Assembly: GCA_947382485.1 (NCBI GenBank)
Contig: CANCYS010000005.1
Location: 1 to 64,000, forward strand
Length of the DNA stretch: 64,000 nt
Origin: an uncultured Clostridia bacterium
GTDB taxonomy: Bacteria > Bacillota > Clostridia > Christensenellales > UBA1242
Direction: 5' to 3'
Both the position numbers and the translations under genes were made by a program. The notes under the pieces are model-generated. The model did not search any database, had not been told where the DNA came from, and was given only the letters and a program-made list of their open reading frames with translations. This document shows positions 15,086 to 52,200 of this stretch, one piece after another (positions within the stretch are counted from its first letter, which is position 1; every line of letters starts with the position of its first letter).

Positions 15086-17329
15086 ATGCGTAATATTGAT
15101 AGCGATTTGATTCGTGGTAACATTGACACTATTATTCTTAAAACTATGCTCGATGGCGACAAGTATGGTCTTGACATCATCAAGGAAGTTGAACTTAGAA
15201 GCAATGGAACTTACGAACTTAAACAACCTACCCTTTACAGCTGTTTGAAACGTCTTGAAAATCAAGAGTTAATTTCGTCATACTGGCTTGATAGTGATAT
15301 TGGTGGCAGACGCCATTATTACAAACTTACTGACAAGGGTCGTGCTGAATATGAGAAAAAACAAGAGGAATGGTCTAAATCTAAATTTATTATTGACAAC
15401 CTTTTAAGCAACTATGATTATGACGACTATCGTCTTGTGAAAAAAGATGATTATGACAGAATTATTGAAGGCAAAACTTTCACATACAATAAAAGCGAAG
15501 AATCTGCAAACGAAAGTGATTTGACTCAAAACTTTGATGAAAGTGATGATGATGATGTTTCTCAGGAAGAAAATGAAACATTTTCTAGCGGTATGGAAAT
15601 TTCAGAACCTGAGGAAAATGAAGATGTTGATGATGTAAACTCTCCTGCCCTTGAAGAAGAAACTGATGATATGGAAGATTACAAAGATTTGGAAAGTTCG
15701 CTTCATCAAGAAGAATTTGATTTGAACGATGAAGAATCTTCTGACAATGAAGATGACGATGAAAGAATTTATGTTTCAGACTATGAAGGTCAAAGTCAGT
15801 CAGAGATTGAAAATGAAAATAATGGTTCTTATTTTGAAGAAAAAACTGACCAATCAAATTTTGAAAACAACATTTTAGCAAGTTTGAGAAAACAAGATGA
15901 CGAAGAAGTTTATACTTATGTTGGCGACCAAAAATCTTATATTAATCATTTGAATATGGCTGATGAAAATGAAGAAAATGAAGATTTTGATGTGGTTCAA
16001 CAAAATTTGTTAGATGACCCAAAATTGAATGGAAATGATGAACTTGAAGAAAGAATTGATGAGTTTTCACAAAACATTGATGAACTTAATAAGTTTTTGG
16101 CAATGAAAAATGCTGATAACAATGAAAATTTAGAAAATGATGATGAGTTTTCTGACAATGCTGACGAAGAAGTTTTAGACGAAGAAAATGAAGAAGACAA
16201 TCAGCTATTTGAAGAAAACAGTCAAGTTTTGGAAAATGAAATATCAGAAAATTCTTATGAAGAAAATGAAGATTCTGAGCCTTATGAAGACAACTATCTT
16301 GACGAACTTAATGATTTAAACTCAAATGGCGGTGGTTATTTTTCAAGTAATGATTCTGCCGAATATGAAAATTTCGCCTTTCCCAGTAATGAGCAGGAAT
16401 CTGAGATTGAAAAAGAAGAATTTGAACCTGCTACTCAAAAAGAAGAAATAGATGAGGAAAATGAGGAAGAAAGTGATATAAATGAAAACTTTCCAACCAT
16501 TTACTCAAATGAAAATGAAGATAATGAAGATTTTGTTGATGAAGATGAAAATCAATCTTCTTATGAAGAAACAAGCACGTTTGCAGATTATTCTCATTTT
16601 GACAACATTATTTCTGAAAATGTGAACAATTATACTGACACAGTTCAGTCTACTATGTTTAATGACAATGATTTCCCTACATTTACTCCAAAATATACTA
16701 GCCAAAATTACAAGGAAAAATTATCTAACCTTTCAGAATATTCTAAAACTTCGATTGATAATTCTGATAAAAAAGATTGTGTGAAAGATACTAAGAGTTT
16801 GCAAGCTCTCAAAAATGACTTTGAAAAAGAAGGCATTGAAATTAAAGAATTCACAAAATATTACAAATCAGAAGAAGCCGAAAAGAGTTATCTTTTGATT
16901 AACAAAATTAATCTTGTGAACAGTTTAATTTTGTTGTTTGGATTTGTATTTTTGCTTTCAGCAGTTTTTGTTATTTTAAACAGCACAAGTTATGGAAAAC
17001 TTTTTGAACTTGACTTTAAATATTTCTTGATTGGACTTATTCCTTTTGCTGTGTATGCTTTGACTTATGCGATTTTATATTTGATTAATCCTTATCGCAA
17101 AGTGCCTGCAAAGTATGCTCCTCGAATTATGCTTTTGATTTCTGCAATTATAACAGTTCAACTTTTACTTATAACTTATTGCGTAAACTTGCAACTTGGA
17201 TTTTATAGTTTTACACAAGAAAACTACAACCATTTACTTTGGATTATTCCAACTATAATAAGTTTTGCACCAATCGTTTGCAACCTTATTTATATGACAT
17301 TGTTCTATTCGAAGAATTTCAATGTTTAA
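15086..17329 (+). CDS. membrane-anchored PadR-type regulator with a long acidic linker
   Basis: A 747-residue protein of unusual design. Residues 1-105 form a PadR winged-helix domain (GNIDTIILKTMLDGDKYGLDI, then QPTLYSCLKRLE and the wing GGRRHYYKLTDKG). Residues about 125-590 are very rich in Glu, Asp and Asn with no recognisable fold. Residues about 610-745 contain four membrane helices. The family is normally a cytosolic dimer of 100-180 residues, so this would place a DNA-binding domain on a tether below the membrane. Without ligand or target evidence the role is open; it could sense membrane state. It has its own promoter and terminator and no obvious transporter partner. Confidence 0.85.
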   Translation: MRNIDSDLIRGNIDTIILKTMLDGDKYGLDIIKEVELRSNGTYELKQPTLYSCLKRLENQELISSYWLDSDIGGRRHYYKLTDKGRAEYEKKQEEWSKSKFIIDNLLSNYDYDDYRLVKKDDYDRIIEGKTFTYNKSEESANESDLTQNFDESDDDDVSQEENETFSSGMEISEPEENEDVDDVNSPALEEETDDMEDYKDLESSLHQEEFDLNDEESSDNEDDDERIYVSDYEGQSQSEIENENNGSYFEEKTDQSNFENNILASLRKQDDEEVYTYVGDQKSYINHLNMADENEENEDFDVVQQNLLDDPKLNGNDELEERIDEFSQNIDELNKFLAMKNADNNENLENDDEFSDNADEEVLDEENEEDNQLFEENSQVLENEISENSYEENEDSEPYEDNYLDELNDLNSNGGGYFSSNDSAEYENFAFPSNEQESEIEKEEFEPATQKEEIDEENEEESDINENFPTIYSNENEDNEDFVDEDENQSSYEETSTFADYSHFDNIISENVNNYTDTVQSTMFNDNDFPTFTPKYTSQNYKEKLSNLSEYSKTSIDNSDKKDCVKDTKSLQALKNDFEKEGIEIKEFTKYYKSEEAEKSYLLINKINLVNSLILLFGFVFLLSAVFVILNSTSYGKLFELDFKYFLIGLIPFAVYALTYAILYLINPYRKVPAKYAPRIMLLISAIITVQLLLITYCVNLQLGFYSFTQENYNHLLWIIPTIISFAPIVCNLIYMTLFYSKNFNV

Positions 17330-22871: not shown

Positions 22872-22898
22872 AAAAAAATAGAGCGAACTCTATTTTTC
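22872..22898 (-). terminator. terminator of the spoIIA operon, overlapping the sigF stop
   Basis: The stem aaaaatagag/ctctattttt encloses the last codons and stop of sigF and is followed on the minus strand by a T-run. Confidence 0.85.
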
Positions 22899-23633
22899 CA
22901 CTAATTTACTTTTTAATTGTTCTATTATCTTTGCTTCAATTCTTGAAACTTGCACCTGAGAAACATCTAGCATTTCGGCAACTTCGCCTTGCGTTTTGCC
23001 ACGATAATACCTGAGAAGGATTATCTTTTTTTCTTTTTCTGGAAGATTCATGATTTCATTTTTTAAAATGAATTTATCTAACATTTCATCATTTTTGTCA
23101 AAAATCGCCAATTTATCTAATACATTTTGGCTGTTTGGGTCATCTTCATCAATTTTTGCATGCAATGAAATTGTTGTTTGACAGGATTCAAGTGCAACTA
23201 CAATATCTTCTTTTTCAACTTCAAAATGTTTTGCAAGGTCATCAACTTTTGGTGATTCGCCTGTTTCTTTTTTGACCTTTTCAATATATTCTTTAAGTTT
23301 TATTGATAATGTTTTTATTGACCTTGAAACTTTGACCATTCCATCGTCTCTTAAAAACCTTTTGATTTCTCCTGCAATCATTGGCACAGCATAGGTTGAA
23401 AACTTGACATCAAAACTTGGGTCGAAGTTTTTTATTGCTTTTAAAAACCCTACACAACCAATTTGATATAAATCATCATATTCAACACCTTTTCCTAGAT
23501 GTCTTTTTACAATCGCTTTTATGAGTGGAAAATTGCCATTGATTAAGGTTTCTGTTGCTTCTTCGTCACCATTTTTTGACTTTAAAATGAGTTCGTTAGT
23601 CTGAACCACATCAAGGGGTTTGTATTGTTCCAT
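22890..23633 (-). CDS. sigF: RNA polymerase sigma factor SigF (forespore)
   Basis: Sporulation sigma factor of 247 residues with regions 2-4 and no region 1.1. Region 2 contains YDDLYQIGCVGFLKAI and FSTYAVPMIAGEIKRFLRDDG; region 4 ends in QGEVAEMLDVSQVQVSRIEAKI, the recognition helix. It switches on forespore genes after septation and is held by SpoIIAB. The ATG shares one base with the spoIIAB stop (TAATG), so translation is coupled. Confidence 0.96.
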   Translation of the reverse strand: MEQYKPLDVVQTNELILKSKNGDEEATETLINGNFPLIKAIVKRHLGKGVEYDDLYQIGCVGFLKAIKNFDPSFDVKFSTYAVPMIAGEIKRFLRDDGMVKVSRSIKTLSIKLKEYIEKVKKETGESPKVDDLAKHFEVEKEDIVVALESCQTTISLHAKIDEDDPNSQNVLDKLAIFDKNDEMLDKFILKNEIMNLPEKEKKIILLRYYRGKTQGEVAEMLDVSQVQVSRIEAKIIEQLKSKLVEK

Positions 23634-24058
23634 TAACCCTTTATTACCTTTTTTAAATGGACAATTAAACCTGATGGTGTGTTTTGTTTAACTTCCATGC
23701 AATCCATGAACGAATCCATTAAAGTGAATCCCATGCCTGAGTGTTCCTCATCAGATTTTGTGGTGAAAAATGGTTGCAAAGCCATATCAATATCAGAAAT
23801 TCCTACACCTGTGTCTTTGACCACAATGTCAAGAGTGTTGCCTGTAATTCCTGCTTCAAGAACAATTTGTCCTCCTTTGTTTTGGTAACCGTGAACTATT
23901 GCGTTTGTTACTGCTTCACTGACTGCTGTTTTTACATCATTGATTTCAGAAATCGTTGGTTTGAGTTCTGTACAAAAAACTGCAACCACACTTCTGGCAA
24001 AACTTTCATTGATGTTTTTTGCTTCAAATTCAAGTTTAAAATAATTATCAAATGCCAT
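23633..24058 (-). CDS. spoIIAB: anti-sigma F factor, serine kinase
   Basis: A 141-residue GHKL-type kinase that binds SigF and phosphorylates SpoIIAA. The N-box (VSEAVTNAIVHGYQ), G1 box (VVKDTGVGI) and G2 box (HSGMGFTLM) are all visible. The start at 24058 follows an aaaaggaga site; codons upstream of it would overlap spoIIAA and lack a site. The gene order spoIIAA-spoIIAB-sigF is that of all classical spore formers. Confidence 0.96.
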   Translation of the reverse strand: MAFDNYFKLEFEAKNINESFARSVVAVFCTELKPTISEINDVKTAVSEAVTNAIVHGYQNKGGQIVLEAGITGNTLDIVVKDTGVGISDIDMALQPFFTTKSDEEHSGMGFTLMDSFMDCMEVKQNTPSGLIVHLKKVIKG

Positions 24059-24071
24059 AACTAATCTCCTT

Positions 24072-24386
24072 TTATGATATTTTTGGAATAATTTGATATA
24101 TTCCACTCATTTCAAAAATTCTGTTTACATAAGAAGTTGGATTCTTGATGTACATGCCTATGTCATACTTTGAATATTTATTGTATCGTCCAAGCAAAAT
24201 GCCAATTCCTGTGCTGTCCATGAATGATACATTTGAAAAGTCTAAAACAAGTTTTGTTTTTGTGCTGGTTAAGTTTTTGAGCAAGTCATCAAGTGAAATT
24301 CGGACATATTCAGCCGAGCATTCATCAAGTTCACCTGAAAGTTCGGCATAAATGCTGTCATCTTTATTTAAGTAATTAATCTCCAT
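24072..24386 (-). CDS. spoIIAA: anti-sigma F factor antagonist
   Basis: A 104-residue STAS-domain protein that releases SigF from SpoIIAB when unphosphorylated. The phosphorylated Ser58 lies in the conserved FMDSTGIGILLGRY segment. A GGAGG site precedes the ATG. It is the first gene of the operon; in relatives a sigma-H promoter lies upstream, but none was recognised with certainty here. Confidence 0.95.
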   Translation of the reverse strand: MEINYLNKDDSIYAELSGELDECSAEYVRISLDDLLKNLTSTKTKLVLDFSNVSFMDSTGIGILLGRYNKYSKYDIGMYIKNPTSYVNRIFEMSGIYQIIPKIS

Positions 24387-29684: not shown

Positions 29685-32600
29685 TCAATATTTTTTATCT
29701 ACGAAATCAACACCTGAAATCTTTTTTGAAACATTGATTCTTGAATTAACAATGTTTTCGCTTTCTTTCAAAAGTTTTTTATCAAGATTTTTGTATACAG
29801 TGTTTTTCTTAAAAAATCTATTTCTACGATATCTATTGATTGATTTTGTAACTATTACGCACAAGAGTAAAATTCCTGCTATTGAACCAATTTTTGCATA
29901 TAACATGGTTCTGTCTGTGTTTGTTACAAGAATACTTACTGAAAGGTCGTTTATTGAAAGCACATAATAACCATTGTCGATTATGTATGAAATTTCTGAA
30001 ATTTTTCCATTTCTATCAATAGCATAAATTTTAACACTTTCAGTTGTGTTTAATGCTCTGATTTTGAATGTGAACACATCACCAGCGATGTAGTTTCCAT
30101 CAACATTTTTAAAACCATAAGCTGTTACACATTTTAAACCATCATTGAAAGAACTGAATGTTGAAAGCAAACTTGCATCTTCATAGATTTGAATTTCAGA
30201 ACTTGAATAGTTTACATTGTCTGTTGTGATTGATGCACTTCCATTGTTGTTTTCAATGTATAATTCTGAAACAATTTTGATTGTGCCTTTGAAATTACAA
30301 TAATAGTTAGGGTCATTTGATTCAATTGTATAGTTATATTCGCCAAGTTCAACTGGATAAACATCATTTTCATATTTTACAATTAAACTGATGTCTTCAT
30401 CTAAACCAATTTCATAAACTGGTGATTGTTGATTTCCATTATAAAGGAAAATTGATTTTTTAACCATTACTGGAACGATTTTTCTGTTTACTGTGAGAAC
30501 TGCTGTGTTTGACTTGTAGGCATTGTAATTTTCATTTCCAGCAAATGTGAAATAAACATTATATGTACCTGCATCAACAACGCTTTCAACTGTTCCCATA
30601 ATATTTGAATATACAAATTCAAAATTTAAGTCCATATTTGGCATGTCGATTTGAACTTCATTTCCTGAATAAACAACTGTTTTATCTGAAAGAACTAAGT
30701 CTAAATCTGCTTTTTCAACATTAAGTGTTCCACAATTAACGATTACATTTTCTTCATAGTTTGCTGAATTAACCTTTATGTTGTTTGCTGAAATTGTGTA
30801 AGAAGAAACATTTGACCATATTTCAGCGTTACAAGCAACATCAAAACTTAAAACATTTACTTCGTCAGATACAATTCCAAGTACACTATATGTGAAATCT
30901 GGATTTATTTCACCATATGCTCTTGTTTTATCATCAAATGTGATTGTTATTTGTGATTTTCTAATTTCAAGATTTGAAGATGTGTAACTAATCACATAAT
31001 TTTCTGCTGAAAGCGAGCCAAGTGTGATTTGATATTCACCTACATTTTCGCCTTGAACTCTCAAAAGTTCACCACCAATTTCGTCACCAGAAACAAGTCC
31101 ACTTACGCTGTATGTGAGTGCTGGGTCTGCTTCACCATAAACTTTGCTTTGTGCATTTGCAACAATAAATAATTTTGCAGGTGTGATTTTTAGCGATGCA
31201 GGAACAAACTCAATTTCATAGTTTTCTGCTGAAAGCGAACCAAGTGCGATTTGATATTCACCTACATTTTCGCCCATCTCTCTTGACAAATTGCCTGATA
31301 TAGTGTCACCAGCAACAAGACCACTTACGCTGTATGTGAATGTTGGGTCTGCTTCACCATAAACTTTGTTTTGTGCATTTGCTGTGATTGTTAGTTTTGC
31401 TGGAAGCACTGTTAATTTTGCATTGATTGAAATGACATTATAATTTTGAACTTTTTCAATGTCAACTGTGATATTGAATGTTCCAACTCTGTTTGAATTT
31501 TCACATGAGATTGAAGCGATGATATCTTCAACATCTTGTGTAAGAACGTTTGAACCTTCAATATAAAAATCAAACTTTGGAGTTTCTGTTCCATAAACTT
31601 TTGTTGAATTTTTGAGAACGATAACTGCTGGACGTTTTTGAATTTCAAACAAAACAACATCAAGTGAAATGTCATAGTTTGAATTTTCGATTGTACCAAG
31701 TGTGATGTTATAGTGACCTACATTTTGGATTTCTTCACTAAGTCTTGAAAGTTTTCCATTTAGGCTGTCACCTGAAACAAGCCCTGTTACACTATACTCA
31801 AATGTTGGGTCTGCTTCACCATACATTTTTGAAGCTGCGAAAGGTGTTATTGTTATAGATTTTTTATTTACAATGAATAATTCAGATTTATAAAGTTCAA
31901 CTTCATAATTTTCAAATTCTACATTTTCAAAACTTAACTCATAACTTCCTGCATTTACTAAACCTAAGTCGTTGATGCTTAAATTTGAAATTATATTAAA
32001 TGAAAGTTCATCGCCTTCAACATTGCCTGTGTAATAATATTCAAAATTAGGGGTTTCGTCACCATAAGTTATTGTTTGTGGCAAAGCATATACACTAACT
32101 TTTCTTTTGGCAACAACAACATCAATCACTTTTTCAAGTGTGAAATTGTCGTTATCAAAGCAGAATACTGCAACATATTCACCTGCGTTTTCTGGCAAAG
32201 TTTCAACTAAGTTTCCTGCTTCATAATTTGATTTTGTGTAATATTTTACAACAATATCATTTTTATCAACCAAATTTGTGTCTATTGAAAAGTCTAAAAG
32301 ATGTGTTGTTTTATCATATACGAAATTTGTTTCGTTTACTGAAACAACGATGTTATGTCTTTTCATTATAACTGTGCCAGCGATGTTGCCTGAAAGGAAA
32401 TAATTGTTATTGTCACAAGTTATCTTATAAACATATTCACCAATATTTTCAAAATTTGCAATTTCATTGTTTTTCAAAATTTCGATAACGATGTCTACAT
32501 CTTCACTTAAAGTTAAATCAAGATTTTGTATGCTACCTGAATATTCATATTCTGTTGTATTTAATGTGATTGATAACTCTTTTTTATAAACAACGATTTG

Positions 32601-34373
32601 TGCTGAACCATCACCAACAAAAAGTTCATTTTCTAATATGCTATATCTGACATAATACTCGCCAATATCAAGGTTTACAGGGTTTTTTATTAAATTGTTG
32701 TCTTTGTCATAATATTCAAAAATAATCAAATTTTCATCAATATTCGCATTTGCTACATAAGAAATTTTGAATCCAGTTGCATCATATGTGTATTCTGTTT
32801 GAATGTTTAAATTAATAATTTTTTTGTAATAAACTTCAACAACTGTGTCACCTGTTATATTTATGCTAAACTCTCCATTTGAGTTTGCACTGCTTGCAAA
32901 TTTGATTTCAGATTCTGAAAGAATGTTTGTCACACCATTTGTTGTGATTTTTATTTGTGAGAAGATTGTTTCATTGTTTGAAGTGAAACTTAAATTATAA
33001 ATTCCCCTTTTTACAATGTTTGAAGTTTGCCCATTTAAATTTGCATCACAATTATATCCAACAATTTGCAAATTGTAGTTTGTGTCATCAACTACAATAT
33101 TTTCAAATGTTTTATGACATTCGTTTCCTGCTTCGTCAACAACAAAGAAATCAAATGTATATGTTCCATTTTCTGGAACGATGAATGTGTTTGTTCCATT
33201 TACAAATGAAATGTTATCACTTGTAACTCCACTTTCTGAATATGTGAAGAAAAAGTTGTCATTGCTAATTCCTGTGCCTGAGATTGTTGCATCAAATGAT
33301 ACTGTTTTTTCTGTAAACAAATCAGATATTGAAATTTCAATTTCTGGAACAATTTTGTCAATTTTGCTTTCTGTGTGAGTGTATACATTTGAAACATTTC
33401 CAACATTATCAAGAGTTCTGAAATAATATGTTCCATTTTCTTCAATTTCATAATATCTTTCAGCAGAGGTTTCATAAGAAGAAAATTCAAAAATATTTGT
33501 CCAATTTGTGCCATCAGTTGAAACTTGAATTTTGCTAATTCCACTTTCAGCATCAGAAACACTGAATGTGAAAGGTCTTGAAACATTTGTCCATTCACTT
33601 GTGGTTGAAACGGACATATTTGGTTTTGTTATATCAGTTGTTGAAACAGTGACCATTGGCTGTTTAACTTTCATGAAGTTTGCTGTTGTTGCCCAACCAG
33701 AAGGTGTTACATAAGATGATGTGAATGAAAGTTCAATTTTATCGAAATTATTGCCTTTTAATTCTGCTGAATTGAAAGAAAGAACATCTGCATTTTGCAA
33801 GTAGTTATCTCTTTCTCCACTAACTTTTTGATTTACATTTAAACTATCGTTATATGCATAAAATGCCATTTCAACGGATTCTGGTTTATCATTTTTATCT
33901 TTATTGATTGAAGCCCAAACAGCGTTGCCAGAAGTAAAATATGCTGATGCTTCTAAACTTACATAACCTTCGTTCAATGCAATAATCATGTTGCTAGATA
34001 AATTTAAAAGTGAAACAAACTGTCCATTGTTGTTTACGAGTGTTGAAGAACTATTTTTTTGATGAATAAGTTCTGAATCACTGCTGTTGTTTCCAGCAGC
34101 TGTTGCATTTGAAACATAATATGAAAAAGCATTTTTTATTGAAGAAACATCATTTCCATTTGGGTATAAATAATAAACGGATTTTCCATCACCACTTTCA
34201 ACAGCATTGTCAATCACTATTGTATACGACTGAGATGTCTTTTTACTGTCAAGGTAACCAACTGGCGAACCAGCATGAGAACTCATGGTGAAAAGACCTG
34301 TTGTTGAAAAAATTACAAAACAAGTCATCACTGCAATTAATAAGCCTGAAATTCCTTTTATTATTTTCTTCAT
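29685..34373 (-). CDS. giant MBG-repeat surface protein with C-terminal membrane anchor
   Basis: A 1562-residue exported protein. A signal peptide (about 1-34) is followed by a unique region, an Ig-like segment around 250-345, and from about 520 onward a chain of 75-90-residue domains with the MBG pattern: YGEADPTFTYSVSGLVxGD ... GENVGEYQIxLGSLSAENY. A membrane helix near 1495-1517 (IGSIAGILLLCVIVT) and a basic cytosolic tail anchor it; there is no LPXTG. Such repeats form stiff stalks in adhesins, so adhesion to host, mucus or other cells is the best guess. Two domains are nearly identical in DNA, pointing to recent duplication. A GGGGGAA ribosome site precedes the ATG. Confidence 0.87.
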   Translation of the reverse strand: MKKIIKGISGLLIAVMTCFVIFSTTGLFTMSSHAGSPVGYLDSKKTSQSYTIVIDNAVESGDGKSVYYLYPNGNDVSSIKNAFSYYVSNATAAGNNSSDSELIHQKNSSSTLVNNNGQFVSLLNLSSNMIIALNEGYVSLEASAYFTSGNAVWASINKDKNDKPESVEMAFYAYNDSLNVNQKVSGERDNYLQNADVLSFNSAELKGNNFDKIELSFTSSYVTPSGWATTANFMKVKQPMVTVSTTDITKPNMSVSTTSEWTNVSRPFTFSVSDAESGISKIQVSTDGTNWTNIFEFSSYETSAERYYEIEENGTYYFRTLDNVGNVSNVYTHTESKIDKIVPEIEISISDLFTEKTVSFDATISGTGISNDNFFFTYSESGVTSDNISFVNGTNTFIVPENGTYTFDFFVVDEAGNECHKTFENIVVDDTNYNLQIVGYNCDANLNGQTSNIVKRGIYNLSFTSNNETIFSQIKITTNGVTNILSESEIKFASSANSNGEFSINITGDTVVEVYYKKIINLNIQTEYTYDATGFKISYVANANIDENLIIFEYYDKDNNLIKNPVNLDIGEYYVRYSILENELFVGDGSAQIVVYKKELSITLNTTEYEYSGSIQNLDLTLSEDVDIVIEILKNNEIANFENIGEYVYKITCDNNNYFLSGNIAGTVIMKRHNIVVSVNETNFVYDKTTHLLDFSIDTNLVDKNDIVVKYYTKSNYEAGNLVETLPENAGEYVAVFCFDNDNFTLEKVIDVVVAKRKVSVYALPQTITYGDETPNFEYYYTGNVEGDELSFNIISNLSINDLGLVNAGSYELSFENVEFENYEVELYKSELFIVNKKSITITPFAASKMYGEADPTFEYSVTGLVSGDSLNGKLSRLSEEIQNVGHYNITLGTIENSNYDISLDVVLFEIQKRPAVIVLKNSTKVYGTETPKFDFYIEGSNVLTQDVEDIIASISCENSNRVGTFNITVDIEKVQNYNVISINAKLTVLPAKLTITANAQNKVYGEADPTFTYSVSGLVAGDTISGNLSREMGENVGEYQIALGSLSAENYEIEFVPASLKITPAKLFIVANAQSKVYGEADPALTYSVSGLVSGDEIGGELLRVQGENVGEYQITLGSLSAENYVISYTSSNLEIRKSQITITFDDKTRAYGEINPDFTYSVLGIVSDEVNVLSFDVACNAEIWSNVSSYTISANNIKVNSANYEENVIVNCGTLNVEKADLDLVLSDKTVVYSGNEVQIDMPNMDLNFEFVYSNIMGTVESVVDAGTYNVYFTFAGNENYNAYKSNTAVLTVNRKIVPVMVKKSIFLYNGNQQSPVYEIGLDEDISLIVKYENDVYPVELGEYNYTIESNDPNYYCNFKGTIKIVSELYIENNNGSASITTDNVNYSSSEIQIYEDASLLSTFSSFNDGLKCVTAYGFKNVDGNYIAGDVFTFKIRALNTTESVKIYAIDRNGKISEISYIIDNGYYVLSINDLSVSILVTNTDRTMLYAKIGSIAGILLLCVIVTKSINRYRRNRFFKKNTVYKNLDKKLLKESENIVNSRINVSKKISGVDFVDKKY
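31000..31275. repeat. recently duplicated MBG domain at the DNA level
   Basis: About 50 bases starting at 31001 recur with few changes at 31223 (offset 222 bp, 74 codons), within the MBG-repeat gene. Neighbouring domains share the protein motif but differ more in DNA. Confidence 0.75.
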
Positions 34374-34433
34374 AATTCCCCCTTATTTTAAGGTATTACG
34401 TTAAATTTTTCAAGTGTATTAGTGTATTTTTCG

Positions 34434-34476
34434 TGACAATATTACATATTAATTATTTATGTAACATATATTGTCA
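34434..34476. repeat. imperfect inverted repeat between the giant genes
   Basis: tgacaatat-tacat (34434-34447) and atgtaacatatattgtca (34459-34476) pair over about 13 bases with small bulges. No T-run follows on the minus strand, so it could be a weak terminator of the lipoprotein gene or a protein-binding site upstream of the MBG gene. Confidence 0.5.
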
Positions 34477-37400
34477 TTATCCGTAAATTAGATGAGAAAC
34501 AATATCTATATCACTGGCATTCAAATTATAGTTTGAAATTGTGCTTTGACTGCTTATTGCCAGCGAATTATTTAGTGCAACATCATTTGAAATGTTGATA
34601 TCGTCAATCTTTATATTTGCACTTTGTGTGTAATATTTATGGTAGATTGATGCCTCTACATCCATGTTTAAAGTGATACCTACCGCAGAAGCTTTTACAT
34701 TGTAAATTTCATTGTTTTGAATACCTACAATCCAACCCTCTTTTGTTATTTCAAAAATAAATTCTATCTTTTTAAACGAATTCATTGTTTGAGCTGACAT
34801 TAATTTGTGGCTGTGAGTTGCATAGTTTTTCCAAACAGATTGTTCATTGCTTAATGTCATTGTAAATGTGTAATTGCCATTTCCATTTATTGAAACATTA
34901 TTAAATGTGCAAACACCAAAACTGATGTTGTAATATAAATAACAATTGATTGGTGCACCATAAATTGATGCGAACTCTGATTCTGAAACTCTTGACAGTC
35001 CACCAGCTGTGTGGTTTGCTGTGAAGTTTGCATTTACATCATCTTTGATAATTTGTTGATAGTACCATTGCCCATCAATTCGAGCAGTTACAAGCGAAAC
35101 TCTTGGGTCTACACCAGCAACTGGGGTTCCATAGTTGACATGCTGTCTGATGAAATTGCCATTGTTGTCTTTCTTTGAAATAATTCTGACATTTGATGGA
35201 CCACTCATATTTGTTTTTGGAGTAACCACACCTGTTGTTTCAATTTGGAAACTTGCTGCATTATCAAGATTTTCATAGGCATTTTGATAAAGCATATAAG
35301 CAAAGTCATTGTTTTTGATAACCAAATCATAGACACCATCTCTTGTAATTGATTTGGTGTAACGATTTTGCAAGTTCTTTTCAACAACAACTTCACCTGC
35401 AACACCATTTAAAGTGTATCTTCCGTTTTCATCGGTGTAGGTTGATTTTGTTCCTGATTTAACTTGTACAAAAGATGCTGCGACACCTGAATCTGACCTA
35501 ACAACACCAGAAATGTCATAATAAACAAATGATGTTACATTGATTATGCTTGGAGCAGAAACAGGAATGTTATTAAGTGAAAATGTTGTATTTTTTCTAA
35601 CAAATTTGACATTAACAATACCTTCAAGCCCATCAATTTTAATTTGCTTGCTTTGATTTGTACAATAAAGTTCGTCATTCAAATAAATTTCAACACCACT
35701 TGAAATGTCTAAATTAAGTGTTATTGCATAAGACATATTTAAAATTAAGCCATTTAAACTGTCTGAAAACTCATAGTCTAAGCCAATTGTTTCACCAGTT
35801 TCATCAAGTTTCATTGATTTTAAAGTGTAACCATTCACAAGAACTGAGATTGTTGATAGTCCATCAATGTTTGTGAATGTGAAATTGCCCTCACTATCTG
35901 CCCTAATAATTTCTGCAACACCATTTGAAAGTTTTAAAGTTACATCAATGTTTAATGGACTATTACCTGTTAAAACCTTACCAGAAATTTGATAGAACGC
36001 CCTAACTTCAACTGTTTTATCAAGCAATCCTGAAAAATTTTCAAAAGTGTAACTTTCTTTTTCAAAACTTAAACTATATCTTCCACTGACAGAACTGAAA
36101 TTAAACATTCCATTCTCATCAGTGAAAACTTCAAAATGAGTGAGCACATCAGTGCAAGTTACTTTTACATTTGAAAGAACTTTATCACCAACTTTTACGA
36201 TGCCCGAAACACTGTATGTTCCATTTATTGACAAGTTTGATTTATGGCCTTTAACGATTATGTTGTTAAACTTGTAACCATCTAAAATGAATGAAATTTC
36301 AACTTCGCCAACAAGACCATTTATGGTAAATTCACCAATAGCATTTGTTTGAGCATAAGTTTCGCCATACTTCAAAATTACATTTGAAAGCATGCTTCCA
36401 CCAGTTGAAACTTTTCCCGAAATGCTGTAAGTTGACTGAACATCAAACAAGCCTGTGTCTGAAACTACAAATTTTTCAAATGTGAATCCTGTTTTTTCAA
36501 ACGTAATTTCATCTCCAAGATTTGCAACAAAGCTAAATGGTTCTTCTCCACTTTGTGAGCCAACAAATTCTGTTCCATTATAAACTTTGAAACCTGAAAC
36601 TAAAATATTTCCAGTTTTAACTTGAACAGAAACATTTGCTTTTGTTTGAACCTCATGATTTCCAAATTCTTGAACTGATAAAGCATCAGTAAACACAAAA
36701 CCTTGTTTTTCAAAACTTACTGTTTGTTGTCCAACAAGACCGCTTACGATGAAGTTTCCTTCACTGTCGGTTTGTGCAACTGTGTTGCCATTTAAAACAA
36801 CATTTACATTTGCAACAGCAGTTAAACCTGAAACAACCTTTCCATACACCATATAACTTGCTGTGAAATTGATGTTTTCATTATCTTCTGAAACTGATAT
36901 ATCATCACTGAAAACATAGCCATCTTTTGAAACTGACACAACACAATCACTTGCAACGAGTTCAAAACAATACTCACCATTTGCATTTGTGTAGGTTGTC
37001 ATGATTTCACTTTCAAGAGTTGCAGTTACACGAGCATATGCAACTGGAAGATTTCCAGACATGATTTTTCCAGCAACCTTAAATCCACTTAAACTAAAAT
37101 CAAACTTTCCACCAGCAGAAACTGAATATGAATTTGGTTTTAATTTGAAATTGCCACTTGCGTCCATTGTGTAAAGCAAATATTTTTCAGTTAAGCCATT
37201 AAATTCATAATAGCCATTATTATCTGAAACAGCGATTTGTCTGTTATTTTCGGCATCAACTAAATATATATTTCCACCAACAACAACGCTTTCTTCATCA
37301 CTTAAAGTTCCAAAAATTTTATAATTTCCATTAAAATTTAAACTTTCAGCATGACATACTTGCTCTTGCATTTGGAAATTGTAATTATTTTTGACAACTG

Positions 37401-39177
37401 AAATTTCGTGGCTACCAAAGATGTTAAGTAGCACAAATTCGCCATTTGTGTCAGTTTCAATACCACTATCAATTCCATCAACATAAACCTTTGCCATAGT
37501 TACAGCATTTGTTCCTGTTTGTACAATTCCATTTACATTATAAGAAAGATTGATTGTTTGATTTGTTGCAGAATTAACGTTTATGCTTTGAGAATTGTAA
37601 TTTTCTGCACTAATTACAAACTCATTTTCGCCATAAACTTTATCAAAAACTATATTTCCATTTGAATCGGCATAAAATTCTTCACCATTAAGTTCAACCA
37701 AAACATTTGAAATTAAAACATTTCCAGATTGCACAAGGAAAGTTACTGAATAAGGAATTAAATATTCAATGTTAACATTTACATTTTCAAAATCAACATC
37801 ATAAGTTTCAAACTTATAATCTTTATACGAAGCTGAAACTGTGTGCTTTCCAAAAAGTGAACCAAAAGCATCTACTGAAACTGGCGAACCATCAAGCAAA
37901 TATTCAAAGTCATTTTCATTTGAAATTTCACCACTTACACCAACATTTAAGTTGTATAAAGCGTGACATGACACAGAATATAAGTTTTCAACAGATATCA
38001 AAACATTTGTTTCTGATAAATTGTAAACACTTGAAGAAAGTTCAATTTCATCACCAAGACAAACTTCGCTCAAAATGCAAGTTGTGTCATCAACTTTTTT
38101 GATTTTATCATGACTGATTGATACATCACCAAGATTTCTATGGTCACAATCAAAAATTAAATAAACTGACTTTGTTCCGTTGAAATTTGCAACTGTGTCA
38201 AATTGGCTTATTGTTACTTTATTGAAAGTTAAACCATCAAAAACTATGCTAAGTTCATTTGTTTTAGAAAGTCCATATATTTCAAAATTTCCATTTTCAT
38301 CAGAAACAGCAACCTCTTTCCCAGCAATTCTTACACTTGCACCAGCAATGTTTGTTTTTCCACTTTGAACTTTTCCAACTACATCATACTTTTTATAGAC
38401 TTCAATTTCTTCAATTTGATTTAAACTTGAAATGTTAAACTCTGGTTTATTAAAATCATAATAATCAGAAACTAATTTGATTTTGCTGTTATAATGAACA
38501 TCAAATGTCATTTCATTTGAATTGATACCAACCATTGAGTCATCAATGAAAAGTCTGATTTGATTGTAATCAACATTTGTTGTGTCAAATGAAAACTTTA
38601 ATGTTAAATTTGATGTTGTGTTGATGACCACATTTGGATTGGTTATGTTTGCTTTAACTGGATAAAACTGAACTCCTGTTTCAAGGCATGAAATTGTTGT
38701 TTCACCAGCAACACCAGCAACTTTGAATTCACCATTGTCATCGGTGTTTGCATAGAAAGTTCCTGAAAGAGAACTGATAACAAGTTCTGCATCTGGTCGT
38801 GCAATTCCATTGTTTTCAACCTTGCCAGAAACAGTGTATTCTTTATATGCAACAAAGTCTGCATTATCTTTTCCATTTGTTATGCTTTTGCTTTCAACAG
38901 CAAACTTATATTTATCAATGCTTGGAGTTACAATAATTCCATTTTTGACTTTTGAAAAACTGTAAACACCCTGTGAATTGGTGTATGTTGTGCCATAATC
39001 ACTTTCAATTTTAACGCCTTCAACCGCCACACCATAATCATCTACAATTCTGCCAGTGACATCAAAACCTTTTTTTGAACCAAACAAAGAGCAACCAGAA
39101 AACATGTTTGTTACAAAAAACAAACACACAAAAATTACTGTGATATTAAATAATTTTTGAAGTATACTCTTTTTCAT
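34477..39177 (-). CDS. giant lipoprotein with carboxypeptidase-regulatory-like repeats
   Basis: A 1566-residue exported protein. The N-terminus has a lysine-rich start, a hydrophobic segment and the lipobox FSGCSLFG, so it should be lipid-anchored through that Cys. About fifteen repeats of 75-85 residues follow, each with a beta-sandwich signature such as TDxxGxFxxxGLxGxxxxSFxKxGYxF, typical of carboxypeptidase regulatory-like (transthyretin/Cna-B-like) domains. The last 250 residues differ and may be a binding domain. The start at 39177 is chosen because a consensus promoter lies 6 nt upstream; an earlier in-frame TTG lies inside that promoter. A role in surface attachment or glycan binding is inferred. 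Confidence 0.87.
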   Translation of the reverse strand: MKKSILQKLFNITVIFVCLFFVTNMFSGCSLFGSKKGFDVTGRIVDDYGVAVEGVKIESDYGTTYTNSQGVYSFSKVKNGIIVTPSIDKYKFAVESKSITNGKDNADFVAYKEYTVSGKVENNGIARPDAELVISSLSGTFYANTDDNGEFKVAGVAGETTISCLETGVQFYPVKANITNPNVVINTTSNLTLKFSFDTTNVDYNQIRLFIDDSMVGINSNEMTFDVHYNSKIKLVSDYYDFNKPEFNISSLNQIEEIEVYKKYDVVGKVQSGKTNIAGASVRIAGKEVAVSDENGNFEIYGLSKTNELSIVFDGLTFNKVTISQFDTVANFNGTKSVYLIFDCDHRNLGDVSISHDKIKKVDDTTCILSEVCLGDEIELSSSVYNLSETNVLISVENLYSVSCHALYNLNVGVSGEISNENDFEYLLDGSPVSVDAFGSLFGKHTVSASYKDYKFETYDVDFENVNVNIEYLIPYSVTFLVQSGNVLISNVLVELNGEEFYADSNGNIVFDKVYGENEFVISAENYNSQSINVNSATNQTINLSYNVNGIVQTGTNAVTMAKVYVDGIDSGIETDTNGEFVLLNIFGSHEISVVKNNYNFQMQEQVCHAESLNFNGNYKIFGTLSDEESVVVGGNIYLVDAENNRQIAVSDNNGYYEFNGLTEKYLLYTMDASGNFKLKPNSYSVSAGGKFDFSLSGFKVAGKIMSGNLPVAYARVTATLESEIMTTYTNANGEYCFELVASDCVVSVSKDGYVFSDDISVSEDNENINFTASYMVYGKVVSGLTAVANVNVVLNGNTVAQTDSEGNFIVSGLVGQQTVSFEKQGFVFTDALSVQEFGNHEVQTKANVSVQVKTGNILVSGFKVYNGTEFVGSQSGEEPFSFVANLGDEITFEKTGFTFEKFVVSDTGLFDVQSTYSISGKVSTGGSMLSNVILKYGETYAQTNAIGEFTINGLVGEVEISFILDGYKFNNIIVKGHKSNLSINGTYSVSGIVKVGDKVLSNVKVTCTDVLTHFEVFTDENGMFNFSSVSGRYSLSFEKESYTFENFSGLLDKTVEVRAFYQISGKVLTGNSPLNIDVTLKLSNGVAEIIRADSEGNFTFTNIDGLSTISVLVNGYTLKSMKLDETGETIGLDYEFSDSLNGLILNMSYAITLNLDISSGVEIYLNDELYCTNQSKQIKIDGLEGIVNVKFVRKNTTFSLNNIPVSAPSIINVTSFVYYDISGVVRSDSGVAASFVQVKSGTKSTYTDENGRYTLNGVAGEVVVEKNLQNRYTKSITRDGVYDLVIKNNDFAYMLYQNAYENLDNAASFQIETTGVVTPKTNMSGPSNVRIISKKDNNGNFIRQHVNYGTPVAGVDPRVSLVTARIDGQWYYQQIIKDDVNANFTANHTAGGLSRVSESEFASIYGAPINCYLYYNISFGVCTFNNVSINGNGNYTFTMTLSNEQSVWKNYATHSHKLMSAQTMNSFKKIEFIFEITKEGWIVGIQNNEIYNVKASAVGITLNMDVEASIYHKYYTQSANIKIDDINISNDVALNNSLAISSQSTISNYNLNASDIDIVSHLIYG

Positions 39178-39183
39178 AATTTT

Positions 39184-39212
39184 ATTATAAAACTTAGTGA
39201 ACAAAATGTCAA
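39184..39212 (-). promoter_or_regulatory. consensus promoter placed for a leaderless transcript
   Basis: On the minus strand TTGACA (39212-39207) and TATAAT (39189-39184) have exactly a 17-bp spacer. Six bases separate the -10 from the ATG at 39177, and no ribosome binding site exists. This is the clearest leaderless case in the window. Confidence 0.85.
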
Positions 39213-46823: not shown

Positions 46824-49229
46824 TTAATTTTCTATATTTTGAATGATTAATTTAAGTTCTTTTTCAGTTAAATTTGGAACTTTCAAATGCACTGGATTTG
46901 CATCAATTTTTGAATATAAAATGTCGTTTACATCTGCAAGCATTTCTGCACCAGCAGTTCCAACAGAATATATTGAATCTTCTTCAATATCGGTTTTAAA
47001 TGAAATTCTTGAAGACAAATTATAATTTAATCCATCATTCAAATCATTATCATAAGTTTCCAAAATCACATAAATGCCCGCAAGTCTACCAAATTTTAAC
47101 AAACTTTGTATCAATGAATTTATTCTATATGAATTGTCCAAAGTTGACATACGAGAATAATTTAAAACAAATGTAATAACATATGGAAGTTTTGAAAATT
47201 GTTCTCTTTCAGCAATGTCATTATAATTTTCAATGCTACTTGCATTTAAACTTGCAATGATTTTATATCTTGATTCAAGTTCTTGATTGAGACTGATTAA
47301 TGTATCTAAAATTTTATTATTGTCTTTTGCAATTTCATTAAGCAGATATGAACTATCTTTATAAATATCATATTTGCTATTGTCATTTGAATCACAAATT
47401 ACCATTTTAAATTCATCTGGATTATTTTTAAGCATCAAACTTAATATTATTGTGTTTATCAATGTGAATGAATTTTCATTTTCACCATAATTGAAGATTG
47501 CCATGTTGTAGCCTCTTTCAAGGTCTGCAAAAACTTGCATATCATCTTCATTTTTACCAAGCAAAAACTCTAACTTATCACTATCTTTAAACTGACTATT
47601 TGAAATTGCATTAATAAAGCCATAATCTTTTATTTCTATATATGGGCTTTCTTTTTTGTTTGATTCAACAGGTTTATAATGATATTCTTCATCAGCATAA
47701 TCCTCGTCAAATTCAGCATTTTCATCAATTTCTTCTTCTTGATTTTGAACTATTTCATTTTCATTTTCAACATCAGTTTCTTGTTCTAAATTAGATTCAT
47801 CTTGACTTTCAACTGATTCATTATTTTCTTCATCATTATTTGAAATTTCATTTGTGACTTCATTTAAATTTTTAAGTTTGCTAAAATCACTTAAAATTTC
47901 AGTTATATTTTCTTCACTTTCTTCGCTGACATTGTCAGATTGAGCAGAAGTTTCTTCAACAACAGAATTTTCTGTTTCTTGAACTGGTTGAGTTTCTGTT
48001 TCTTCATTATTAACCAACTGGCTTTCTAATTCTTCATTATTTTCAGAAACATCTTCTGTTTTTTGTTCTTCATTGTTTAGATTTAAAATTTCGCTGATTG
48101 CACCATTATCTTCTAATTCAAAATTTTCAGATTTTGGTTCTTCTTCAATTTTATTTTCAACAGCGGATTCTTCTTGAACATCAGCACTATTTGATTGTTC
48201 TGATTGTTCATAGTCAGAATCATCACTATATAAAATATTTTTGATTAAATCAATGCTGTTATCTTCATGCTCTGGTTCTTCAAAAACCTGTTCTTGAACC
48301 TCGTCCATACTTGGGTCATAATGAACTTCAAATGCTGAAAAATTATCATACACATTAAAGTCTTTATTTTGAGTTGCATTCTCATCAACATTTGGAAGAT
48401 TAACACTTAATCCATTGTCCGAATTTTCATCATTCACTTCGAATTGACTTAAATTCACCATGTTTTCAGGCTTTTGATTTTCGGTTGTTTCGTTTGAAAC
48501 TTCCAAATTGTCACTTGTTTCATTTAAAGTACTTTCTGATTCATTTTTTGTTTGTTTTAAAGCATTTTCTGCCTCAATTTCGGCTTCAACACTTTCATAT
48601 TGCTCAGTAGATTTAACTTGATTTGCATTTTTTATTGAATATATATCATCGTCTGCATTAGGGTCTTCATCATAAAATGTGGATTCTTTTTTCATTGGTT
48701 CATCAGAAAAATCAGCATCTTCATCTTCAAGTTCTTCATATGAATCGCCAAGAAGCATTTTTAAAAGTTCTTGCCCGTCTAATTTATCAATCATATCGCT
48801 ATCTGATGAATTTGAAGATTCTAAGTTTGCTGTTACATCACTTACATTTTCAGTTAATGTGTCGGCACTGCTTGAAACTTGGTAATTATCTTCTTCAATA
48901 TTCTCTGCAAGTTCTTCAATTTGTGGTTCATTTTCAGCAGTTATGGCTTGACTTGAACTATCTTGCAAAGCATCTGCAATCACTTCATCATCTTTTTCTT
49001 CTTCATAAGAATTGTTACTTTCTGATGATGAATTTTCTAGATTATCATAAAGTTCTTCAATTTTTTCGTCTGAATCTTCATTAGAAACGACATCTGAACT
49101 TTCAGATGTTCTATTAGGATTATAGTTGCTATACATGTTAGGGTCAGTTTCAATTCCACGCTCAATATTGAGCTCTTCTCTTGCCCTTCTTAATTCTTCT
49201 AAATCAACAGAACCTACATTTTTATCCAA
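46824..49229 (-). CDS. FtsK-like pseudo-ATPase with long acidic N-terminal region
   Basis: An 801-residue protein. Residues 1-540 are acidic, Glu/Asn/Ser-rich and probably disordered. Residues about 545-801 follow the FtsK motor domain of the upstream gene strand by strand: YNMAIFNYGENENSFTLINTIILSLMLKNNPDEFKMVICD parallels the segment MVHLLIAG-Walker A-NIVLSLIYKSSPDDLRLIMID of FtsK, and QFSKLPYVITFVLNYSRM parallels QFERFPYIVIIVDELAEI. Walker A (GSTGSGKS) is replaced by GENENS and Walker B (VDELAE) by LNYSRM. There are no membrane helices and no gamma domain. It cannot be a normal translocase; it could join or regulate the FtsK hexamer. It starts 14 bp after ftsK. Confidence 0.82.
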   Translation of the reverse strand: MDKNVGSVDLEELRRAREELNIERGIETDPNMYSNYNPNRTSESSDVVSNEDSDEKIEELYDNLENSSSESNNSYEEEKDDEVIADALQDSSSQAITAENEPQIEELAENIEEDNYQVSSSADTLTENVSDVTANLESSNSSDSDMIDKLDGQELLKMLLGDSYEELEDEDADFSDEPMKKESTFYDEDPNADDDIYSIKNANQVKSTEQYESVEAEIEAENALKQTKNESESTLNETSDNLEVSNETTENQKPENMVNLSQFEVNDENSDNGLSVNLPNVDENATQNKDFNVYDNFSAFEVHYDPSMDEVQEQVFEEPEHEDNSIDLIKNILYSDDSDYEQSEQSNSADVQEESAVENKIEEEPKSENFELEDNGAISEILNLNNEEQKTEDVSENNEELESQLVNNEETETQPVQETENSVVEETSAQSDNVSEESEENITEILSDFSKLKNLNEVTNEISNNDEENNESVESQDESNLEQETDVENENEIVQNQEEEIDENAEFDEDYADEEYHYKPVESNKKESPYIEIKDYGFINAISNSQFKDSDKLEFLLGKNEDDMQVFADLERGYNMAIFNYGENENSFTLINTIILSLMLKNNPDEFKMVICDSNDNSKYDIYKDSSYLLNEIAKDNNKILDTLISLNQELESRYKIIASLNASSIENYNDIAEREQFSKLPYVITFVLNYSRMSTLDNSYRINSLIQSLLKFGRLAGIYVILETYDNDLNDGLNYNLSSRISFKTDIEEDSIYSVGTAGAEMLADVNDILYSKIDANPVHLKVPNLTEKELKLIIQNIEN

Positions 49230-49243
49230 TTTTGTTACCTCAT

Positions 49244-52200
49244 TTAATCATTTATACTATCGTAATCTTCGCCAAAATCTTGTCTGAATTGGTCTGGTGT
49301 TATAAGCACCTTTCTCACCTTTGAACCTGTTGCAGGAGCAATATATCCCTTATCTTCCATTTGGTCGACAATTCTTGCGGCTCTTGAATAGCCGATTGAA
49401 AGTCTTCTTTGAAGATAAGAAACTGATGCACCACCATTTTGCATAACAAGTTTCACAGATGTTTTGAAATAACTATCAACATTTTCTCTTGATGGCAATC
49501 CATCTGAGCCAAATGAAACGCCTGCATCATCAGGAGCGGCTTGTTGCTCTGAATTTATGATGTTATTAACCATTTCATCATAATTTGCGTTGTTATATTT
49601 TTTGTCATAATCAATAACTGCTTTAATTTCTTCATCTGACGCATATGCGGCTTGAAGTCTTGGGGTTGCAGATGTTCCTGTTGGAGCAAATATCATATCA
49701 CCTTGACCAAGCAATTTTTCTGCACCAACTGCATTTAAAATTGTTTTTGAGTCAATGCCTGACTGCAAACTGAAAGCAATTCTTGAAGGCACATTGTTTT
49801 TAATTACACCAGAAATGATGTCAACTGATGGTCTTTGTGTTGCAAGAATCATATGCATTCCGCAAGCACGAGCAAGTTGAGTTAATCTTTGAATGCAAGC
49901 CTCAACTTCTTTTTTATTGACCTGCATAATTTCTGCAAGTTCGTCAACAATGATGACAATGTATGGGAATCTTTCAAATTGTCCAGCTTTTACAAGTTCA
50001 CTCTTGTTATATGGTTCAATATTGTTATAACCTGATTTAGACATCAAATCATAGCGACGTTCCATTTCTTTAACACACCATTTGAGTGCATTGATTGCCT
50101 TGTCTGAACCCATGACAACTTCTGGTGTTAAAAGATGTGGCAAACCATTATATCTGTTAAATTCAACTTTCTTTGGGTCAATCATGATAAGACGTAAGTC
50201 ATCTGGTGAAGACTTATAAATTAAACTTAGAACAATGTTGTGAATGAACACAGATTTACCAGAACCAGTTGAACCTGCAATAAGCAAGTGAACCATTTTT
50301 GCCAAACTTTTGACAATTATTTCACCTGAAATATCTTTTCCAATAGCAATTGGAAGCGGATCTTTGAAGTTTTGGAACTCATCAGATTCTAAAAGTTCTC
50401 TTTCATAAACTGAACTAAATGTATCATTTTCAAGTTCAATACCAACATAACTGCTACCTGGAATTGGTGCTTTGATAACGATTGTTTTTGCTGCAAGTGC
50501 TGCCGCAATATCATCTTCATACATTGGGATTTTCTTTACTGACACACCAAGAGGAACTGAAAGTTCATATCTTGTAATTTTTGGACCACGAACTATATTT
50601 TTAACTTTTGCAGGAATATTGAATGCAGAAAGCACATTTTCAAGTTGTGCAGATTTTCTGTTTTGTTCTTCTGTGTAATCGCCATTATCTGGTTTTAGAG
50701 GTCTGAGCAAGTTTAGTGGTGGCGGATTATACCTTACGCCTGGAATACCAACATTAAATCCATATGGATTTGTCTTTGTTTCTTTTACAGGAACAGTATA
50801 TTTATTTTCGTTATTAATTGGATTATTTTGAATTACAGGCGATGATGGAACATTTGAAACTCCACCAAATGCAGGTTTTTGTTCAACTTGTGGTTTTGTA
50901 TTTCCAAAGTTTTGAGAAGTGCCAAAACCTGAATTTTTTCTTTCAAATTCTTTATCAATGCCCAAATTATCAGGCTTTGCAGGTTCAAAACTTGGGGTGC
51001 TTAGTGTTACAAAATCTGTTTTTGGAACTGATGGTTCTTTATTAAATGAACCAAAATCATTATTTGCTTTAACAGGCTCTTGTTTTTCATCATCATCAAA
51101 ACTAAATCCAAAACTACTGCTAGATGGACTATCTAAAACATCACTTTTAACATCATTTTCAATATCATCTTCACTTGTGCTTAAAATTTTAGAAATTTCA
51201 TCATTTATTGAAGAGTTATCAAATGTTCCATTAAATTCTGTTTCGTCTGAAAAATCTGATGTTTCTTCATCATTTCCAAAGTTTGATGAGAAATCACTTA
51301 AATTTGAACTAAAATTATTAACTTCATTATCTACATTTACTGGTTCAGTATCAAAAGTGTTAACTTGTGAAGAGTATGGTGTTTCATTATACGGATTTTG
51401 TGAACTTACAAATTCATTTGAATAATTAGTTTCTGTATTTTCCGAACTTTCAGTTGATGACATACCACCAAAAGTCGCATTCATAAATTGTCTGCGATAT
51501 TCATTTACATCTGAGGTATAAACATCTGGATATGTTTCAGCAGAATAAAAATTACTACTAAATGTGTTTTGAGTTTGTGGCTCTTCATTTGTTTGAGTGT
51601 CTGGCTGTTTGAAATAGCTATCACTACCCGTGTACACATTTGAATAGTTGTTATATGTGTAGTTGTAACCTTCTGTTATATCTCTGTCTGTGATTTCACC
51701 AATAACATCTTCACTGCTATAAATTGGTTTTGGTTCATTTTCATTTATGCTTGTGCCTTCTAAATCTCTGGCATCAACAGAAATTTCATCAACAACATCT
51801 GCCAATTCACCACTATCAAATGAATAATTTGGCATATTTTCGTTAACCAAATCTCTATCACTACGACTAACCTTTTCTCTCATTTTATGAGTTTTAAGTT
51901 TTTTGATGTGTGGTGCTTCATATTTTCCATAAAGTTGATAGTCAATAAAAAGTCCAAAAAGAAGGGTTGTTAAAATAACAAACACAATAATTACACCCAT
52001 TCCACCAAGAAGAAGTGAAATTAAACCACACAAAATTGAACCAACACTTCCAAGAAGTGTGATTTTTGATGTATATGAAATTTCAAGATATGTTTTGAAT
52101 GTTTGACCGCTAACAACTGCATCAAGTGGTTTGAAGGTTGAAATTGCATGAATAACTAATAAAACCGAAACAATTCCAATTGTAAGCAAAACTGCTGGCT

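Follow-up and report, generated by a model that had tools for sequence, protein, structure and literature searches.

A conserved, stand-alone degenerate FtsK motor domain encoded directly behind ftsK in one genus of uncultured Clostridia

FtsK and SpoIIIE are treated as homohexamers, each built from the product of a single gene. In clamp loaders, the delta-prime subunit supplies an arginine to a neighbouring subunit. Degenerate versions of the FtsK-type domain, with degraded Walker motifs, are already known from the ATPases of the T7SS, namely the DUF of EccC and the D2 and D3 domains of EssC/EccC. In the EccC5 DUF the Walker A motif is one residue shorter (PMC11154593), and an arginine finger is reported to be missing from this DUF (PMC11154593) and from D3 of EssC/EccC (PMC9436818). 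These domains are fused to an active domain in one chain. In contrast, the protein described here, which we term pseudo-FtsK, is the product of a separate gene in a lineage devoid of T7SS. It was recognized in a window of 64,000 nucleotides (the whole stretch of DNA analysed) from an uncultured Clostridia bacterium. We found no description in the open-access full-text literature of a pseudo-ATPase partner of FtsK or of a stand-alone pseudo-FtsK encoded with ftsK, and the conserved stand-alone form beside ftsK appears to be new to that literature. Through a conserved, catalytically dead relative encoded with ftsK, control of the motor by a non-catalytic partner of its own would become accessible to genetics; such a relative would also be a case of an ATPase domain turned to another use within one genus.

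The gene order in the window is pnp, polysaccharide deacetylase, M16 peptidase, ftsK, pseudo-FtsK, rimO, pgsA, recA and rny, and is largely common to relatives except for the pseudo-FtsK gene. The latter directly follows ftsK, as an earlier note on this DNA had placed it (Table 1), starting 14 nt past the ftsK stop and ending 9 nt ahead of rimO. Across the eight species of the genus examined the gap behind ftsK is 14-39 nt, each with a ribosome site, and a G-rich site lies at short distance upstream of the start in 8/8 genomes. A promoter scan gave a signal no better than that of shuffled sequences.

Table 1. Features of the pseudo-FtsK locus, in window coordinates
Feature	Position	Strand	Remarks
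Pseudo-FtsK gene	46824..49229	-	801-aa ORF, TTG start; found at this place in 8/8 genomes of the genus
Degenerate FtsK beta (RecA-like) domain, residues 529-801	46827..47645	-	Pfam, BLASTP, profile, model, Foldseek
Former DNA-gripping loop II	47025..47060	-	3 residues shorter; Arg632 and Lys643 equivalents lost
Retained arginine finger Arg715 (= P. aeruginosa FtsK Arg620)	47085..47087	-	Arg in 8/8 pseudo-FtsKs and 33/33 FtsKs
Lost Walker B acids: Leu-Asn for Asp-Glu	47160..47165	-	Asn-Asn in the 7 other species
Lost Walker A: NYGENENS for GSTGSGKS	47469..47492	-	Lys472 equivalent absent in 8/8
Acidic linker, predicted disordered, residues 41-528	47646..49109	-	orthologue pLDDT ~30; no transmembrane segment
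Short linear motif DFNVYDNFSAFEV, residues 290-302	48324..48362	-	the one clearly conserved linker stretch
Conserved N-terminal segment, residues 1-40 (MDKNVGSVDLEELRRAREELN..)	49110..49229	-	genus-only; helix 10-23 predicted in orthologue
Shine-Dalgarno GAGGT of pseudo-FtsK gene, just after ftsK	49237..49241	-	7 nt upstream of TTG
ftsK, 1060 aa	49244..52426	-	membrane segments, linker, alpha/beta/gamma domains present; catalytic residues intact

In pseudo-FtsK a conserved N-terminus (residues 1-40) is followed by an acidic linker, which leads into a C-terminal domain of ~273 residues. The likeness of this domain to the FtsK motor, suggested in the earlier note, is borne out by pairwise alignment, profile and fold searches and a residue map. 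BLASTP aligns residues 551-796 with the motor of the neighbouring FtsK (255 columns, 25% identical, E 8e-19), and the Pfam FtsK_SpoIIIE model (PF01580), which has a cut-off of 24 bits, recovers the domain at 42.4 bits. When a profile of the eight orthologues was compared with the PDB, FtsK of E. coli and P. aeruginosa was retrieved at 2e-24 to 1e-18 (2IUS, 2e-24) and EccC only at 4e-6. An AlphaFold2 model of the domain was obtained from the eight sequences (best of five with mean pLDDT 78.5 and pTM 0.82, the other four lower at 50-66); the top Foldseek matches of this model are all FtsK motors, the best solved structure being E. coli FtsK 2IUS (E 3e-19, TM 0.83). This structural comparison, which the earlier note had proposed, thus places the domain in the FtsK fold and not in another. 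On the strength of the PF01580 and 2IUS matches, pseudo-FtsK belongs by homology to the FtsK/SpoIIIE superfamily. The homology covers the beta subdomain and its lead-in only: Pfam FtsK_alpha and FtsK_gamma find no match in pseudo-FtsK, whereas the neighbouring FtsK has both.

To map functional residues we used P. aeruginosa FtsK numbering, comparing the eight pseudo-FtsKs with 33 FtsKs; residue roles were taken from cryo-EM and simulation studies (PMC7321959, PMC9410874), those of R620 as arginine finger and of loop II in DNA gripping coming from the former (PMC7321959). All eight pseudo-FtsKs lack equivalents of K472 in Walker A, D595 and E596 in Walker B, the phosphosensor Q631, R632 and K643 of loop II and R661 of loop I, and in all eight loop II is three residues shorter; the first six of the residues named are present in 33/33 FtsKs. 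The Walker A pattern GxxGxGK[ST] is likewise missing in 8/8, and in seven of them the motif is one residue shorter, as in the EccC5 DUF; GENENS at the P-loop and LNYSRM at Walker B read just as the earlier note had them. Pseudo-FtsK is therefore almost certainly an inactive ATPase. Judged as an FtsK DNA translocase, it lacks Walker A, Walker B, the loop I/II residues and the alpha, gamma and membrane parts, and has the arginine finger. It shares with FtsK/SpoIIIE the fold, homology over the whole beta domain, this arginine and an adjoining gene, and differs in lacking membrane segments, alpha and gamma domains, Walker A/B, phosphosensor and DNA-gripping residues.

The equivalent of Arg620, which in FtsK extends into the ATP site of the adjoining subunit, is kept in all eight pseudo-FtsKs despite their mean identity of 42%. 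Among 51 columns invariant in the 33 FtsKs, 11 are kept in 8/8 pseudo-FtsKs and 25 in none; given this base rate of 22%, retention of the arginine is suggestive but not significant by itself. It gains some weight because the reported degenerate FtsK-type domains of T7SS are without the finger (PMC11154593, PMC9436818). The second trans-acting residue (548) varies within FtsK itself. Several positions have become newly invariant in pseudo-FtsK, including E596 to Asn, 597 to Tyr, H625 to Tyr, K643 to Asn, A465 to Phe and H512 to Tyr, and many of these surround the old active site, which seems to have been rebuilt and to be now held constant.

The acidic region that the earlier note had placed ahead of the FtsK-like domain is real: residues 46-521 contain 32% D+E and 4% K+R, with a net charge of -132. 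A hydropathy scan of the N-terminal part of pseudo-FtsK peaks at 0.05, as against 2.84 in FtsK, and detects no hydrophobic or membrane segment; by sequence, pseudo-FtsK is a soluble protein. Within the otherwise unalignable linker lies a 13-residue motif, DFxVYDxFAxFEV, which as the pattern [DN][FL]x[VMI]YDxF[AS]xFE[VI] recurs in 8/8 pseudo-FtsKs with a mean best-match score of 52; in four shuffles the maxima were 28-34. The core of the motif, Y[DE]xFxxFE[VI], was sought in FtsK and the other ORFs of the compared loci and found in pseudo-FtsK only. The N-terminus shows 59-93% identity to the query consensus across the eight species; a search of 20 genomes for a second copy of it returned none, save one weak match at chance level. 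In a full-length model of one orthologue (L039) the N-terminal helix 10-23 reaches a pLDDT of up to ~69 and the linker motif ~30. Both lie outside the confident region of this model, which was checked for folding of either segment onto the domain.

Phyletically, pseudo-FtsK is restricted to a single genus, where it lies between ftsK and rimO in all eight species examined and scores 376-446 bits with the eight-row profile. Of 297 family genomes searched with this profile, 289 belong to other genera, and none of these has a match exceeding 138 bits, a score that FtsK itself attains; in a draw of 248 genomes of the order, the window's own apart, none scored above 125 bits. The ftsK-rimO spacing in 22 loci from other genera is -20 to 142 nt, and hence there is no pseudo-FtsK gene between them. 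When 84,980 species genomes were scanned with a single short peptide pattern, which reaches close relatives only, seven loci were obtained, apparently those of the seven other genus species; all are from uncultured Clostridia and several from the gut of goat, sheep or roe deer. The co-occurrence with ftsK across the order raised in the earlier note is thus not observed; nor is the gene missing from close relatives or set among random neighbours, being conserved and syntenic in 8/8.

Pseudo-FtsK evolves rapidly. Mean identity within the genus is 35% for pseudo-FtsK, 57% for FtsK, 68% for rimO and 87% for pnp. Such divergence, together with the lost catalytic motifs, is what a decaying pseudogene copy of ftsK would display. 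However, the ORF and ribosome site are intact in 8/8 species, the domain has 32 invariant columns, and the N-terminus and linker motif are conserved. Moreover, dN/dS of the C-terminal domain (Nei-Gojobori) is ~0.18 and ~0.23 in close pairs (G001-G004 and G002-G006) and 0.57 in a more distant one (G000-G005), values that are rough because synonymous sites are near saturation. The close-pair values of ~0.2 point to a functional pseudo-ATPase and not to decay. On these sequence comparisons pseudo-FtsK is very probably a functional gene under purifying selection, and the pseudogene reading, refuted by conservation, retains almost no probability.

In phylogenetic trees the eight pseudo-FtsKs form one clade with a stem of ~4.2 substitutions per site. 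The best tree groups them with the FtsK of the genus, with a support of 25/0. Of 26 residues specific to the FtsK of the genus, pseudo-FtsK has only 2, and its similarity to these FtsKs does not exceed that to FtsKs from elsewhere. In most genus genomes no full FtsK other than the neighbour was found. Tandem duplication of ftsK, as put forward in the earlier note, is the simplest account because of the position beside a full ftsK and the lack of another in most genomes. It is suggested by position, and neither the tree support nor the residue count confirms it. Alternatively, the gene might derive from a mobile FtsK-like ATPase, a phage or a T7SS EssC domain and have been inserted after ftsK, an origin compatible with either of the functions considered below. 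The failure of the tree to place pseudo-FtsK inside the genus FtsK clade would fit such an event, as would the single sequence scoring higher with the T7SS EssC model (54 bits, in the D2 region) than with FtsK models (42 bits). Yet the eight-species profile scores 89 bits with FtsK and 29 with EccC, Foldseek ranks FtsK first, no relative was found in viral contigs, and phage and plasmid matches are FtsK-like proteins at ~25% identity. We consider a foreign origin improbable; a phage or plasmid source was rejected, nothing closer than these FtsK-like proteins having been found. A T7SS origin and assignment of the protein to EssC/EccC were also rejected, 54 bits comparing with a curated cut-off of 778 and EssC being above cut-off in 0/121 genomes of the order.

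Since the ATP- and DNA-contacting residues are lost and selection nevertheless persists, pseudo-FtsK is probably a regulator or adaptor and not a motor. We favour the reading that it is a soluble, catalytically dead beta-domain protein, produced from the ftsK operon, which serves as a non-catalytic partner of FtsK, with a probability of roughly 0.45. In its favour are the FtsK fold, the pattern of residue losses, the arginine kept in 8/8, the short operon gaps, the close-pair dN/dS and the newly invariant residues. That it acts on or with FtsK in some manner has, judging from sequence, about an even chance. In such a partnership, the beta domain would use the face that bears the surviving arginine finger to dock on a motor subunit of FtsK and thereby complete, or block by capping, the ATP site of that subunit, so tuning assembly or firing of the ring. 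A further factor, such as a protein of the septum, might be bound by the N-terminal 40 residues and the motif in the linker, with the long acidic linker tethering the beta domain, and its dead cis site, to both. Docking through the arginine finger is in itself unlikely. Slightly more doubtful still is a two-component FtsK motor in this genus, wherein a pseudo-ATPase subunit would lend its arginine finger and set when or where the ring fires. The clamp-loader delta-prime/RFC5 subunit would work alike, being a non-ATPase member of an AAA+ ATPase ring (PMC3331839), but it belongs to a different ATPase superfamily and is no close homologue, and ring membership of pseudo-FtsK is hypothetical.

Lacking the alpha domain, which makes up the stable portion of the FtsK ring, pseudo-FtsK cannot be an ordinary ring subunit. 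A mirror-tree test over 21 non-independent pairs gave no positive correlation between its divergence and that of the motor of FtsK (rho -0.39, p 0.08), and in one pair of genomes (G000 and G005) the FtsK motors are 95% identical and the pseudo-FtsKs 35%. This counts against tight co-assembly, being unexpected for a large shared interface. The idea put forward in the earlier note, of a non-catalytic subunit acting where the division or spore septum forms, is a guess. Fast evolution independent of FtsK fits better with reuse of the beta fold as a protein- or peptide-binding scaffold, which would make no contact with the FtsK ring and whose place after ftsK would reflect origin only. The conserved replacements that fill the old active site (N596, Y597, Y625, N643) are consistent with this, and the degenerate FtsK-type domains of T7SS, which do not bind ATP and are yet needed for secretion (PMC11154593), provide a precedent. 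Against a scaffold stand the unbroken position of the gene directly behind ftsK at 14-39 nt in all eight species and the arginine finger, which, unlike in the T7SS precedents, is kept throughout. We regard such reuse as a real possibility, albeit one falling short of the partnership with FtsK.

Some further features of the window and of related loci are worth recording. Within window positions 50200-50400, the FtsK of the genus carries a fixed change after the P-loop, SGKSVFIH, with His where 26 other FtsKs have Asn; this change is possibly linked to pseudo-FtsK. In the FtsK of two loci, L065 (G033) and L071 (G019), the P-loop reads GATNSGKS for GxTGSGKS, the second Gly being replaced by Asn with Lys and Ser intact. 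A spoIIA-like operon at window 22890-24386 (-) encodes a STAS protein, a HATPase anti-sigma kinase and a sigma-70 factor, which suggests that the lineage forms spores even though its genome is near 1 Mb; consequently FtsK may double as SpoIIIE. The same three genes occur in a relative from outside the genus (L071) that is without pseudo-FtsK. Two very large proteins (1562 and 1575 aa) are encoded side by side at 29685-39204 (-); repeated MBG domains occur in one of them and carboxypeptidase-regulatory-like repeats in the other. Finally, a 747-aa protein encoded at 15086-17329 (+) combines an N-terminal PadR DNA-binding domain with ~650 residues that have no Pfam match.
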